Positions 3,593 to 52,997 of a DNA stretch of 52,997 nt are shown here, in pieces (position 1 is the stretch's first letter; each line of letters begins with the position of its first letter). The translations under genes and the position numbers were made by a program. The stretch is from a bacterium (GTDB taxonomy: Bacteria > Bacillota_I > Bacilli_A > Izemoplasmatales > UBA1188), in NCBI GenBank assembly GCA_017541975.1, contig JAFXYB010000016.1, forward strand, positions 1 through 52,997. Direction: 5' to 3'. A model generated the notes under the pieces. That model did not search any database and was not told where the DNA came from. It worked only from the letters and a program-made list of their open reading frames with translations.

Positions 3593-5564
3593 TTTCTATT
3601 TCCTGTCTTAGTTCGAATAGAGCATCTCTTAATTCCATTGCTCTTTCAAAGTCGAGTTCTTTAGCGGCTTTAAGCATAGCTTTTTCCATAGATTGTAGAA
3701 TCCTATCTCGTTCTTTAATAGATACCTTAGTAATATCGAGTTTTTCTTTGGATTCTTGAGTATCTTTCAATTCTTTAGATAGAACGAATGCTTCACCAAT
3801 TGGTTTGATGATTGTTTTTGGAATTGTTCCATGAGTTTTATTGTATTCTTCTTGAATATGACGTCTTCTTTCTGTTTCTTTGACTGCATTTATAATAGAG
3901 TCAGTCATTTGATCAGCATATAGGATTACTTCGCCATTTTCATTTCTTGCAGCTCTACCGATTGTTTGAATAAGAGATCTCTCACTTCTTAAGAAGCCTT
4001 CTTTATCAGCATCTAGGATAAGTATCTTAGATACTTCTGGTATATCGAGTCCCTCTCTTAATAGATTTATACCAACCAAACAATCGTATTCACCAAGACG
4101 AAGTTTTCTAATTATTTCAAGTCTTTCTAGTGCTTTTATTTCACTATGGAGATAGGCAACCTTATAGTTAAGTTTTTTAAGGTAAGCTGATAAATCTTCG
4201 CTCATCTTAATTGTAAGAGTAGTTATGAGAGTTCTATAACCATCTTTGATAGTTTTATCTACTTCTCTTACAACATCATCAATCTGATTCTTACATGGCC
4301 TAATTTTAACCACAGGATCTAAAAGGAAAGATGGACGAATAATTTGTTCAACTATTGGACATCCTTTCATCTTTTCATAGTCTCCCGGAGTTGCACTCAT
4401 ATAGATAACTTGTTTGAGCCTATCCTCAAATTCAGTGAAATTTAGTGGTCTATTATCAAGCGCGCTTGGAAGACGGAATCCATAATCGACTAGCGCTTGT
4501 TTTCTACTTCTATCACCATTAAACATTCCCCTAACCTGTGGTACTGTAACGTGAGATTCGTCAATTATTATTAGATAATCATTTCCAAGATAATCTAGAA
4601 GTGTATATGGTGTTTCATTTGGACCTTTGAGGGCAAGATGCCTTGAATAGTTTTCTATTCCAGAGCATGTACCTATTTCTCTAAGCATTTCAAGATCATA
4701 TGTTGTACGTTCTTTGATTCTTTCCGCTTCAAGTGGCATATCATGATCTAAAAAATATTTAATTCTTTCATCCAATTCTTCTTTGATTCTTCTAAGAGAC
4801 TCTTCTAAAGTAGCTTTATCAGTTACGAACTGAGTGGCTGGATAAATTGATATAAGTTCTAGTTCTTTATTGGCATGAAAATTTGTAACATCTATTTCTT
4901 TTATTGAAACAATCTCATCAAAATCGAGTTCTACTCTAATTCCTTCAGTAGATGAATATGGTGGGAGAATATCTATTGTATCACCTTTAACCACAAAAGT
5001 ACCACGTGATAAATCATTTTTAGAACGAATATAGAATGCATCAGATAATTTCTTTATTATCTCTTTTCTTGATATCTTATCATGATGACGTAGCACAAAC
5101 ATCTGATTCTCATATGAATCAGGAGAACCGATACCATATATACATGATACAGATGCGACGACGATTACATCATCTCTTTCAAGAAGAGATGCGGTCGCAG
5201 AGTTTCTTAGTTTATCAATTTCTGAGTTTATGTCAGCTTCTTTTTCGATATAGGTGTCAGATGATACTACATATGCTTCTGGTTGATAATAATCATAATA
5301 TGAAATGAAATATTCAACTCTATTTGATGGAAATAATTCTTTTAGTTCCATATAGAGTTGCCCAGCAAGGGTTTTATTGTGCGCTAAAACAAGAGTTTTT
5401 TTACCAACTCTTTCGATTACGTTTGCGATTGTGAATGTTTTTCCAGTACCTGTGGCACCAAGAAGTATCTGTTCCTTAACGTTATTATTGATATTGGAAA
5501 CAAGCTTTTCAATTGCTGATTCTTGGTCGCCAGATGGTTTGAAGTTGCTTTCAAGTTTAAACAT
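3576..5564 (-). CDS. uvrB: Excinuclease ABC subunit B
   Basis: UvrB, 662 residues (normal length), the damage-verifying helicase-like subunit of nucleotide excision repair; it loads from UvrA and recruits UvrC for incision. Walker A is GATGTGKT (residues 36-43), the DNA-clamping beta hairpin region reads SYYDYYQPEAYV near residue 90, the DEAD-like Walker B is IIDESH, and helicase motif VI is QTIGRAARN. The C-terminal UVR helix pair (KELDFERAMELRDALFELRQ) that binds UvrC is intact. It overlaps dnaE by 8 bases and the methyltransferase gene by 17, so all three are one transcript. No LexA-type box was recognised nearby. Confidence 0.98.
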   Translation of the reverse strand: MFKLESNFKPSGDQESAIEKLVSNINNNVKEQILLGATGTGKTFTIANVIERVGKKTLVLAHNKTLAGQLYMELKELFPSNRVEYFISYYDYYQPEAYVVSSDTYIEKEADINSEIDKLRNSATASLLERDDVIVVASVSCIYGIGSPDSYENQMFVLRHHDKISRKEIIKKLSDAFYIRSKNDLSRGTFVVKGDTIDILPPYSSTEGIRVELDFDEIVSIKEIDVTNFHANKELELISIYPATQFVTDKATLEESLRRIKEELDERIKYFLDHDMPLEAERIKERTTYDLEMLREIGTCSGIENYSRHLALKGPNETPYTLLDYLGNDYLIIIDESHVTVPQVRGMFNGDRSRKQALVDYGFRLPSALDNRPLNFTEFEDRLKQVIYMSATPGDYEKMKGCPIVEQIIRPSFLLDPVVKIRPCKNQIDDVVREVDKTIKDGYRTLITTLTIKMSEDLSAYLKKLNYKVAYLHSEIKALERLEIIRKLRLGEYDCLVGINLLREGLDIPEVSKILILDADKEGFLRSERSLIQTIGRAARNENGEVILYADQMTDSIINAVKETERRRHIQEEYNKTHGTIPKTIIKPIGEAFVLSKELKDTQESKEKLDITKVSIKERDRILQSMEKAMLKAAKELDFERAMELRDALFELRQEIENAKHS

Positions 5565-45642: not shown

Positions 45643-46398
45643 TTATTTACCGTATTTAATTCTATTAACTAAATCCTTTATCTTGGATACATTCATGTAG
45701 AGTGTATCTTCATTGATATTCTTCTTGCTTAATTCTTCAAGGATACTTGCCTTAGCTTCTTTCTTGATAACGATGGTATCGATAATATCATTAAAATCGA
45801 TACCTTCTTTTTCAAATATCTCTTCAAGTGAGCATTCATCTCTTCCCCAAAGAAGAAACAATCCTTTTTGCATATATAATCTATCAAATTGTTGAGTGGC
45901 ATCTACGAAGATAGGCATATCTAATCCTTCGTTACCGATTAAGGTATTTTCTTTATCGATATATTTTTGAAGCCATTCATAGAGGAGTTTATTGTTTCTT
46001 ATTACTTGACTTGATAATTTTCCTTTTTCTTTTAAGAGATTTTCATATTTAGTTTTATTGAAGATGAAGACTTTGCCATCATCTTCTTTGTGCTTTTCTT
46101 TCTTGTCGTAGCAGGCAAAGAAAAGCGCTACATCAAATGAATATGAAAAATCTAACATTCTTGTAGGAAGTGAAAAATGTTGGGCAAGTTCGATACATGT
46201 TAGTTCATCAAAACCAAAAATATCTTTCATTTCATCGACAAATTCAAACATCTGTCCATCAGCTTTTAAAATATGATTTTCTCTAAGTCCTGATGGAATT
46301 AAAACATAGTTTGCGAATGCTTGTCCACGAAAAACAAATACATCTCCTCTTCCATCTAATGCACTTTTATATTCATCATAATTAGATATTTTTTTCAT
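45643..46398 (-). CDS. FRG-domain protein at the head of the sugar ABC operon
   Basis: A 251-residue protein with an N-terminal FRG domain (DVFVFRGQAFANYVLIPSGLRE, residues 18-40, giving the domain its name) and the downstream ELAQHFSLPTRMLDFSYSFDVALFFACYD segment typical of it. FRG proteins are of unknown function and are often seen with phage-defence or stand-alone genes, seldom in sugar operons. Here it is the first gene, 10 bases before the permease gene, with its own GAGGAT site and a strong promoter plus 22-bp palindrome upstream. Cotranscription with the importer is very likely; its role in it is not known. Confidence 0.88.
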   Translation of the reverse strand: MKKISNYDEYKSALDGRGDVFVFRGQAFANYVLIPSGLRENHILKADGQMFEFVDEMKDIFGFDELTCIELAQHFSLPTRMLDFSYSFDVALFFACYDKKEKHKEDDGKVFIFNKTKYENLLKEKGKLSSQVIRNNKLLYEWLQKYIDKENTLIGNEGLDMPIFVDATQQFDRLYMQKGLFLLWGRDECSLEEIFEKEGIDFNDIIDTIVIKKEAKASILEELSKKNINEDTLYMNVSKIKDLVNRIKYGK

Positions 46399-51461: not shown

Positions 51462-51535
51462 GCAGGTGTAGTTCAATGGCAGAACGTCAGCCTTCCAAGC
51501 TGAACATGAGGGTTCGATTCCCTTCACCTGCTCCA
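51462..51535 (+). tRNA. tRNA-Gly (UCC anticodon)
   Basis: A 74-base cloverleaf: acceptor GCAGGTG/CACCTGC, anticodon stem TCAGC/GCTGA with loop CTTCCAA (anticodon TCC), T arm GAGGG-TTCGATT-CCCTT, encoded TCCA end. It reads GGA and GGG. Third tRNA-Gly isoacceptor in the window. Confidence 0.95.
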
Positions 51536-51547
51536 AATAGAATGAAA

Positions 51548-51597
51548 TTGTCCCCAAAAGTTGGACCAAATGGTACAATAAATAGGGGACTTTTTAT
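51548..51597 (+). other. Possible IS3-type end remnant and tRNA terminator
   Basis: TTGTCCCCAAAAGTTGGACC (549-568 of kb 51) resembles terminal sequences of IS3-group elements seen in Firmicutes, as I recall them. Its GTCCCC also pairs with GGGGAC at 51585-51590 ahead of TTTTTAT, which gives a hairpin that could terminate the tRNA transcript. No transposase gene is near. Confidence 0.4.
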
Positions 51598-51621
51598 ATG
51601 AGAATATCAAACTTTTTATTT

Positions 51622-52479
51622 TTATAAATTCTTTAGTATATTGTCTTTACTTATTGTAGTGATTTTTGTCATAATGAATCTTTTCTTTCCAACATCTTTT
51701 ATAGATGAACCAATAGAATAAATATCATCGTCTATTATTAAGAATCTATCGTGTACTATATTTGTTCTTATTAGAGTAAGGTTATGATTAATTTGAAATT
51801 TAGAGATATCTTGTTTTGTGATATCAGCTGATGGAAACGTGTAAATAGTTATAGGAACTACTATTTCATTTAACATATCTAAAACAGTTATATTAATATA
51901 TCCATCTATTATGATTATTTCCTTCTTAGTTGATAAAATAAGCTTTTTAATATATGAATATGCTTCAAATATACTATTTTCAAAAAATAGCATATTAGAT
52001 AATATTTTTTCAGTTGATTCAAGTGATAATAATCTATTATTCATATTAGATGTATTTTCAATTAAATTATTAACTTTATTATTTAAAGATATTATATTTT
52101 CTTGGCATTCTACACAACGCTTATCATTTACTGAATATCCCCTTAATAAATATTGTTTTAAAACTGAATTAGCCCATATACGAAATTGATTTCCTCTATT
52201 GGACCTAACTCTATAACCAACAGATAGTATTATATTTAAATTATAGAATTCAACAGGTTTGTCAGAATTTGCAATGTGCATTTTTTGCACGTTGCTATTA
52301 TCACATTCCTTTTCGCTTAAAATATTTTTTATATGCTTAGATATGACACTCCTATCCCTGTCAAATAAAGTAGATATTTGTTCTTTTGTTAACCATACAG
52401 TATCCTCAATAGGTGATACATTTACATCCAAACTAAAATCACCATCTTCAAATTTTATTAATTCATACTTCTTTTCCAT
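51622..52479 (-). CDS. RhuM-family protein with C-terminal PLD-like domain
   Basis: A 285-residue protein. The N-terminal RhuM domain (1-118) has the winged-helix-like VWLTKEQISTLFDRDRSVISKHIKN and the family hallmark FYNLNIILSVGYRV...QFRIWANSVLKQYL. A short coiled coil (125-165) leads to a C-terminal domain (165-285) with IIIIDGYIN and VHDRFLIIDDDIYSIGSSIKD, a phospholipase-D-like H-x-R...D motif (H243, R245, D250; R replaces the usual Lys). RhuM proteins are of unknown function, often near restriction or defence genes. It is the most downstream of at least three tandem related genes; its ATG lies inside the end of the previous gene (22-base overlap). Confidence 0.86.
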   Translation of the reverse strand: MEKKYELIKFEDGDFSLDVNVSPIEDTVWLTKEQISTLFDRDRSVISKHIKNILSEKECDNSNVQKMHIANSDKPVEFYNLNIILSVGYRVRSNRGNQFRIWANSVLKQYLLRGYSVNDKRCVECQENIISLNNKVNNLIENTSNMNNRLLSLESTEKILSNMLFFENSIFEAYSYIKKLILSTKKEIIIIDGYINITVLDMLNEIVVPITIYTFPSADITKQDISKFQINHNLTLIRTNIVHDRFLIIDDDIYSIGSSIKDVGKKRFIMTKITTISKDNILKNL

Positions 52480-52931
52480 AATACCATCTCTTTAGTAATA
52501 TTTTCTGTATTTATTACACTAGCTTCTAACTGAAGTATATTAGATTGATATGAAATAATCCTATCAGCATTAACTACATAACCATTTAATAGATACTTTT
52601 TAAGAATAGAATTAGCCCATATACGAAACTGTATTCCACGTTTTGAATTAACCCTATATCCAATAGCCAGAATCATATCTAGATTATAATATGCTACATT
52701 ATATGTTTTTCCATCAGAAGCAGTTAGTGCGTTTTCCGCACATACTGAAATAGGCAATTCATGTTCGGAAATGATATTATTTACATGGCGTGTTATTCTT
52801 GTTCTATCTACGCCAAATAATGATGCCATATCATTTTGTGTTAACCATACGGTTTCTTCATTAGGGCTTACGTTCACATCTAAACTAAAATCGCCATCTT
52901 CAAATTTTATTAATTCGTATTTCTTTTCCAT
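52458..52931 (-). CDS. RhuM-family protein, short copy lacking the PLD-like domain
   Basis: A 157-residue copy with the same first 22 residues as the next gene (MEKKYELIKFEDGDFSLDVN...) and the RhuM hallmark YYNLDMILAIGYRVNSKRG..FRIWANSILKKYL. After residue 130 it passes directly into ENITKEMVLWKRSMN. That same tail, with one or two changes, ends the partial gene upstream, where it follows PLD-type sequence. It therefore looks like a copy that lost the coiled coil and PLD part by in-frame deletion. Its DNA-recognition residues differ from the neighbour (NDMASLFGVDRTRITRHV), so the copies may bind different targets. Confidence 0.8.
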   Translation of the reverse strand: MEKKYELIKFEDGDFSLDVNVSPNEETVWLTQNDMASLFGVDRTRITRHVNNIISEHELPISVCAENALTASDGKTYNVAYYNLDMILAIGYRVNSKRGIQFRIWANSILKKYLLNGYVVNADRIISYQSNILQLEASVINTENITKEMVLWKRSMN

Positions 52932-52997
52932 AATACCATCTCTTTAGTAATATTTTCTAGCTTTATCATAAAGAATCTCTTCTTACCTATATCATTA
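52910..52997 (-). CDS. C-terminus of a third RhuM/PLD-like gene, cut by the window edge
   Basis: The frame from the window edge to the TAA at 52912-52910 encodes NDIGKKRFFMIKLENITKE and a short tail. GKKRFFMIK matches GKKRFIMTK of the 51622-52479 product, placing it at the end of a PLD-like domain. The tail overlaps the start of the next copy by 22 bases, exactly as between copies two and one. Only 28 residues are in the window. Confidence 0.7.
   Translation of the reverse strand, partial: NDIGKKRFFMIKLENITKEMVLWKRNTN

Follow-up and report, generated by a model that had tools for sequence, protein, structure and literature searches.

A tandem array of RhuM-type, PLD-like genes at a contig end, and exchange of the reader block among its relatives

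The window, that is the whole stretch of DNA analysed here (positions 1-52,997), is the entire contig C29 of G000, a draft genome of 1.18 Mb in 29 contigs, 82.5% complete. Its end carries a tandem array on the minus strand. Copy 1 (51622-52479, 285 aa) is full, with a RhuM-type reader, a long helix and a PLD-like domain. Copy 2 (52458-52931, 157 aa) is an open reading frame with an internal deletion: the reader, part of the coil and the tail ENITKEMVL are present, the PLD-like domain is not. Of copy 3, which is truncated by the contig end, the final 88 bases (52910-52997) are all that remains, with the tail NDIGKKRFFMIKLENITKEMVLWKRNTN. The copies overlap by 22 bases in both places, the stop of copy 2 lying inside copy 1 (52458-52479) and that of copy 3 inside copy 2 (52910-52931), just as a sequence-only reading of this DNA had described. 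The array of three consecutive copies announced by that reading is real but shorter, with one full copy, one deleted copy and 88 bases of a third. Similarly, the claim that each copy starts with the same 22 residues rests on two starts only, those of copies 1 and 2, which have their first 23 residues, MEKKYELIKFEDGDFSLDVNVSP, in common.

The array is beyond chance: copies 1 and 2 are 57% identical across 143 residues (E 8e-45), and the same kind of arrangement was also found in other species. It might be asked whether similar starts misled the assembler into producing the tandem junctions, as the contig ends within the repeat and this gene region is also where other contigs, from sister genomes, break off. 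We consider this very improbable, since the two junction repeats (52390-52505 for copies 2 and 1, 52842-52957 for copies 3 and 2, minus strand) agree at 103 of 116 bases and differ at 13, both inside one contig, and since overlapping or fused copies are present in independent genomes. Identical DNA at the shared starts, on which the earlier concern about an assembly error hinged, is ruled out: 13 of 93 bases differ over the first 31 codons. These differences therefore indicate an older duplication or conversion, and no copy made by the assembler. A similarity search of the genome's contigs found no continuation of the array on another G000 contig. Taken alone, the array is the unremarkable-looking end of an unusual family, whose candidate group is already known.

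Both copies matched the RhuM family above the curated Pfam cut-off of 33.7 bits (PF13310; copy 1, 69.2 bits, 4e-19; copy 2, 79.3 bits, 4e-22), the match covering not the whole model but its N-terminal end, positions 1-69 of 252. Copy 1 also matched PDLC04879, a PADLOC model of group PDC-S05, over the full length (1-283 of 285, E 1.5e-78). An AlphaFold2 model of copy 1 (mean pLDDT 79.5, pTM 0.44) has, in order, a small beta sheet, a helix-turn-helix with a wing, a single helix (94-156) and an alpha/beta domain. The protein was divided into blocks A (aa 1-30), B (31-90), C (91-118), D (119-160) and E (161-285). In copy 1, the conserved start (block A) lies at 52390-52479, the reader block (aa 31-118), which comprises the helix-turn-helix, the wing and a connecting helix, at 52126-52389, and the PLD-like domain, with its HDR...D...GxS motif, at 51622-51999, all on the minus strand.

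A sequence search of solved structures gave nothing significant. With Foldseek, copy 1 matched TrmBL2 (wing-helix, coil, PLD-like; the best match in the PDB) and NucT. The C-terminal half has a PLD fold, for which NucT and a number of PLD structures gave E values of about 1e-3 or lower; over the whole chain, matches were weak (TM 0.23-0.30). Among viral models, BRO proteins were among the best matches. Residues D192, Y194, H243, D244, R245, D250, G257 and S259 are each conserved in 60-62 of 62 relatives from several phyla (Bacilli, Bacteroidota, archaea and others). What would be H-x-K-x4-D reads H-D-R-x4-D in 60-62 of the 62, the lysine being replaced by arginine; to judge from this HKD-like motif, catalysis by the domain is likely.

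Several known systems resemble these proteins in part. PDC-S05, which comprises single-gene candidates (PDLC04879, PDLC04869), is a predicted defence group only, the prediction coming from genome context; PMC12988326 calls it unvalidated, and no experiment on protection against phage was found. The RhuM family was proposed to act as a toxin in restriction loci, with a Fic/Doc fusion where the C-terminal half is PLD-like here (PMC3710099). The RhuM literature consists mostly of mentions of the name, a function being proposed only in the HEPN paper. HsdS subunits exchange their DNA-recognition segment between conserved flanks, and the array proteins are analogous in this respect; they differ in being unrelated in sequence, in having their own effector domain, and in the lack of a methylase partner beside the copies of the genus. 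Copies 1 and 2 had no HsdS match in Pfam, PADLOC or NCBIfam. TrmB and TrmBL2 have the same order of wing-helix, coiled coil and PLD-like domain, whereas copy 1 has the conserved HDR motif and no sequence match to them in Pfam or NCBIfam. BRO proteins form multicopy, domain-shuffling families, and the viral BRO, or Bro-N, reader fold is alike, but the viral proteins carry other C-terminal parts. Finally, BfiI is a PLD nuclease with one motif per subunit; nucleases of the NucT and BfiI type share the fold and the single motif with the array protein, which has arginine for the motif lysine and whose activity is predicted.

Copy 2 had been described as lacking both the coiled coil and the PLD-like part while keeping ENITKEMVL. 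The PLD-like part is indeed gone and the tail kept, but the first part of the coil is kept as well. Reading of the printed sequences placed the deletion junction at AGAAAATA (52499-52506, minus strand). This 8-base microhomology occurs in the coil and again in the tail of an intact relative, G005:C4, as a short-homology deletion would lead one to expect, in agreement with the earlier impression that recombination had removed the segment. It is conceivable, though we think it unlikely, that copy 2 still functions as a subunit consisting of a reader alone; paired with copy 1, it would broaden, restrict or block what copy 1 does, one effector then being served by two readers. Copy 2 is an open frame overlapping copy 1 with part of the coil kept, and the same order of reader and reader-PLD recurs as an open fusion in G005:C4 and, in frame just upstream, in G006 C9 and C3. 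Against this, the other PLD-deleted copy, G006:C32, is frameshifted, and in the fusions of G006:C6 and G003:C140 the PLD part is broken or missing, which resembles decay. The deletion of the PLD core in G006:C32 (L039, about 3704-4299) is a second, independent one; coil and tail of this copy resemble those of copy 1, and its start is of the local type.

Copies of the family were found in 6 of the 7 genomes of the genus (G000 and five sisters), on many contigs, and many of them are decayed. The number of matching stretches per genome was 3-9 by alignment search and 3-7 with copy 1 alone as query; these are not gene counts, as one broken gene may give several stretches and some stretches are ORF6N-PLD genes. 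G005:C4 contains an in-frame reader+reader-PLD fusion of 406 aa, G006:C6 a broken fusion, G003:C140 a reader+reader, and G001:C85 a full copy followed by an overlapping, decayed one. Contigs C9, C3 and C32 of G006 all break in the same sequence just upstream of the gene, and the first two look, by their sequence, as if they read in frame into the end of a preceding reader. Outside the genus, tandems occur in L088 and L106, and L146 has an ORF6N-PLD gene followed directly by a RhuM reader without PLD. At G000:C8, G001:C45 and G001:C26, in this genome and one sister genome (L184, 2801-3772; L185, 1017-1994; L186, 2419-3495), the coil and PLD-like domain of the family are attached to an ORF6N reader. 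These relatives match the other PDC-S05 model, PDLC04869; with the same coil and PLD-like domain on an ORF6N reader, effector and reader are therefore modular. The family is also present on Bacteroides plasmids, labelled ‘RhuM family protein’, and full-length members are rare in phage records. The idea of an expanding module is thus supported by the dispersed and tandem copies of the genus; for the window's own array, ongoing growth is conjectural.

The recognition helices differ between copies 1 and 2, as had been noticed, block B being just 35% identical. Comparison of relatives extended this to an exchange of blocks. Copy 1 and L078 are 86, 84 and 82% identical in blocks A, D and E and 48% in B, while L078 and G006:C9 are 80% identical in B and 44% in E. 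Likewise, copy 2 and G001:C15 share 76% in B and 21% in D, and L032 and L082 53% in BC and 92% in DE. Since the identities cross between pairs, rate differences cannot explain the pattern. In distance matrices of a 12-sequence genus set, the flanks A, D and E agreed mutually (0.28-0.76) and block B agreed with neither A nor E (-0.15 to -0.03). In topology tests with 17 sequences, the DE tree was rejected on the BC alignment (177 log units, p-AU 2e-11) and the BC tree on the DE alignment (580 log units); the two halves of the PLD region differed by just 20-28 log units, with rejection by AU and not by SH. The reader block (aa ~31-118) is uncoupled in phylogeny from both flanks, and block A goes with the C-terminal half.

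An orthologous site downstream of an aldolase gene, a locus other than the window's, shows directly that exchange within the gene has taken place in the family. G001:C50 and G003:C140, from two close genomes, have flanks 96-98% identical; inside the gene, divergent segments enclose a recognition segment of more than 100 bases that is almost the same in both, a patchwork at the nucleotide level. Homology stops near codon 90, and the G003:C140 copy runs on into a second reader, its PLD part lost. The module had been called recombining, and tests, matrices, crossing identities and patchwork together bear this out for the specificity block. The ORFs read next to the array included no recombinase gene; the exchange would need nothing beyond ordinary homologous recombination or gene conversion. 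Reader-block exchange, double readers (including reader-reader fusions) and the conserved leader presented below are not described in the papers found on the family or on PDC-S05.

Most solitary copies of the genus have a common leader, in which a terminator-like hairpin with a U-run lies immediately 5′ of the ribosome-binding site. It was found at G005:C4, G001:C15, C85 (two) and C50, G003:C140 and C132, L078, L081, L082 and the gene-less G000:C5, and not in copies G005:C17, G006:C6 and G036. Its elements are a small ORF, a covarying hairpin and a partly paired ribosome-binding site (L078, 5880-5990; L050, 6380-6510; L166, about 1501-1566; L173, about 1501-1564). In most leaders, reading of the sequences gave a short ORF that contains (Q/K)-L-N and extends into the hairpin; the U-run folds onto an A/G-rich region. 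Of the 12 stem pairs 9 are changed on both sides, and 92% of cells pair, a value reached by none of 500 shuffles, slid versions giving at most 57%. By a rougher rule, a terminator-like hairpin precedes 9 of 220 other ORFs at such a distance. In G001:C15 and L078 the hairpin is not the terminator of the upstream gene, because that gene is divergent there. No Rfam match was obtained for the leader in L078, L081 and L082. Such a leader may work by translation-dependent attenuation. The window's array shows no leader because the contig ends before it. At G000:C5 (L002, about 1505-1533), an intact leader and 29 bases of a RhuM start are left and the remaining gene is gone; a sister genome carries a RhuM gene at the same tRNA cluster. 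A similar hairpin precedes a DUF1016-type gene at G006:C29, a partial gene at the contig end and below the Pfam cut-off.

Some distant relatives adjoin type I restriction genes. Of 130 genes lying nearest to distant RhuM-PLD genes, up to 6 gave a match to a model of type I methylases and 5 to one of specificity subunits; among 128 farther genes, the 25 families listed included no type I family, unlisted ones having at most one member each. Many distant RhuM-PLD loci have no type I neighbour. Beside the copies of the genus no partner methylase or immunity gene was evident, nor was a methylase present among the ORFs read beside the array.

We give about an even chance to what is, as a whole, the best explanation, namely that the array is part of a multicopy, modular reader-effector family, and similar odds to its best reading as a recombining defence repertoire. 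The Bro-N/RhuM-type winged helix would read DNA, the helix of some 60 residues would pair two subunits, and the PLD-type domain, with one H-D-R...D half-site per subunit, would cut or modify nucleic acid. The family would grow by head-to-tail duplication at the start/stop region and decay by short-homology deletion, as in copy 2, and replacement of the reader block between conserved flanks would diversify it as type I specificity subunits swap target domains. Its most likely role would be to counter phages or plasmids with sequence-directed nucleases whose set keeps changing. This explanation is supported by the block exchange, the tandem and fused copies, the conserved PLD motif, the fold matches to NucT, TrmBL2 and BRO proteins, the PDC-S05 match, the type I genes adjoining some distant relatives, and the joining of coil and PLD to an ORF6N reader. 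It leaves the sparing of self DNA unexplained, with no evident partner methylase or immunity gene in the genus; the change of the HKD lysine to arginine, the many decayed copies and the weak whole-chain fold matches also speak against it. As for the functions named beforehand, defence is plausible and compatible with the PDC-S05 match and the type I neighbours (5-6 of 130), which are absent from the families listed for the farther genes; self-recognition found no specific support.

Regulation and selfish spread are two less likely alternatives. The proteins could be transcription regulators of TrmB-like build, whose PLD-like domain senses a ligand and does not cut, and the array a set of diverging regulators. 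TrmBL2 is the best PDB fold match, with identical domain order, and the reader resembles viral BRO and phage regulators. We nevertheless judge this improbable, as HDR...D...GxS is conserved in 60-62 of 62 relatives over several phyla, NucT-like nucleases match as well, a TrmB match is absent from Pfam and NCBIfam, and decay and high turnover are ill-suited to a host regulator. Or the genes could be selfish or mobile, spreading, recombining and decaying with no host benefit, which would agree with dispersed copies at different sites with a common leader, with presence and absence between sister genomes, and with the many remnants, including the leader with only 29 bases of gene. This too has a low probability in our view: intact frames are still present, the effector motif is shared across phyla, and neither insertion machinery nor a clean target-site boundary was found.

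To return to the defence repertoire, we propose, tentatively and with considerable doubt, a more specific form of it: a family of single-protein sequence-directed nucleases in which exchange and stacking of reader blocks (two on one effector) go on continually and provide a strain-specific repertoire, expression being held back by a leader (small ORF, terminator, partly paired ribosome-binding site) that senses the state of translation. Swapping of the reader block between copies across related bacteria would be expected of cells that repeatedly alter the target of the protein, which may be phage DNA. RhuM-type genes are widespread, and a swappable reader cassette separates the specificity part from the effector. 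Copy 1 and L078, with the same effector and different readers, are natural chimeras that make the recognised target directly testable.

As the sequence-only reading had noted, the array lies beside a tRNA-Gly and a possible IS end; these are tRNA-Gly (TCC) at 51462-51535 and an IS-like repeat end at 51537-51611, outside the module, both on the plus strand. These surroundings are not constant to the module, as sister genomes G005, G002 and G004 have the same tRNA-Gly without RhuM, and most other RhuM copies are not close to a tRNA gene. A preference for tRNA genes was considered and dropped (5 of about 18 loci within 0.5 kb, too weak without a proper background). The IS-like repeat was likewise rejected as carrier of the module, its other three copies adjoining tRNA-type sequences without RhuM and the tRNA-Gly site being RhuM-free in the three sister genomes. 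In sister genomes, the best matches to the repeat cover the tRNA part of the query and not the repeat. The end, TGAAATTGTCCCCAAAAGTTGGACC..., occurs four times in the genome (window 51537-51611; L053, 71-145; L054, 71-141; L055, 1501-1570), and every occurrence follows a tRNA gene or a tRNA-like 3′ end at a distance of about 8-14 bases, three of the four tRNAs being called by ARAGORN. The repeat resembles an insertion element with a preference for tRNA 3′ ends. Elsewhere in the window, an FRG-domain protein (PF08867, 5e-14) is encoded at 45643-46398, and a similar FRG-type gene lies in the same neighbourhood in G005.
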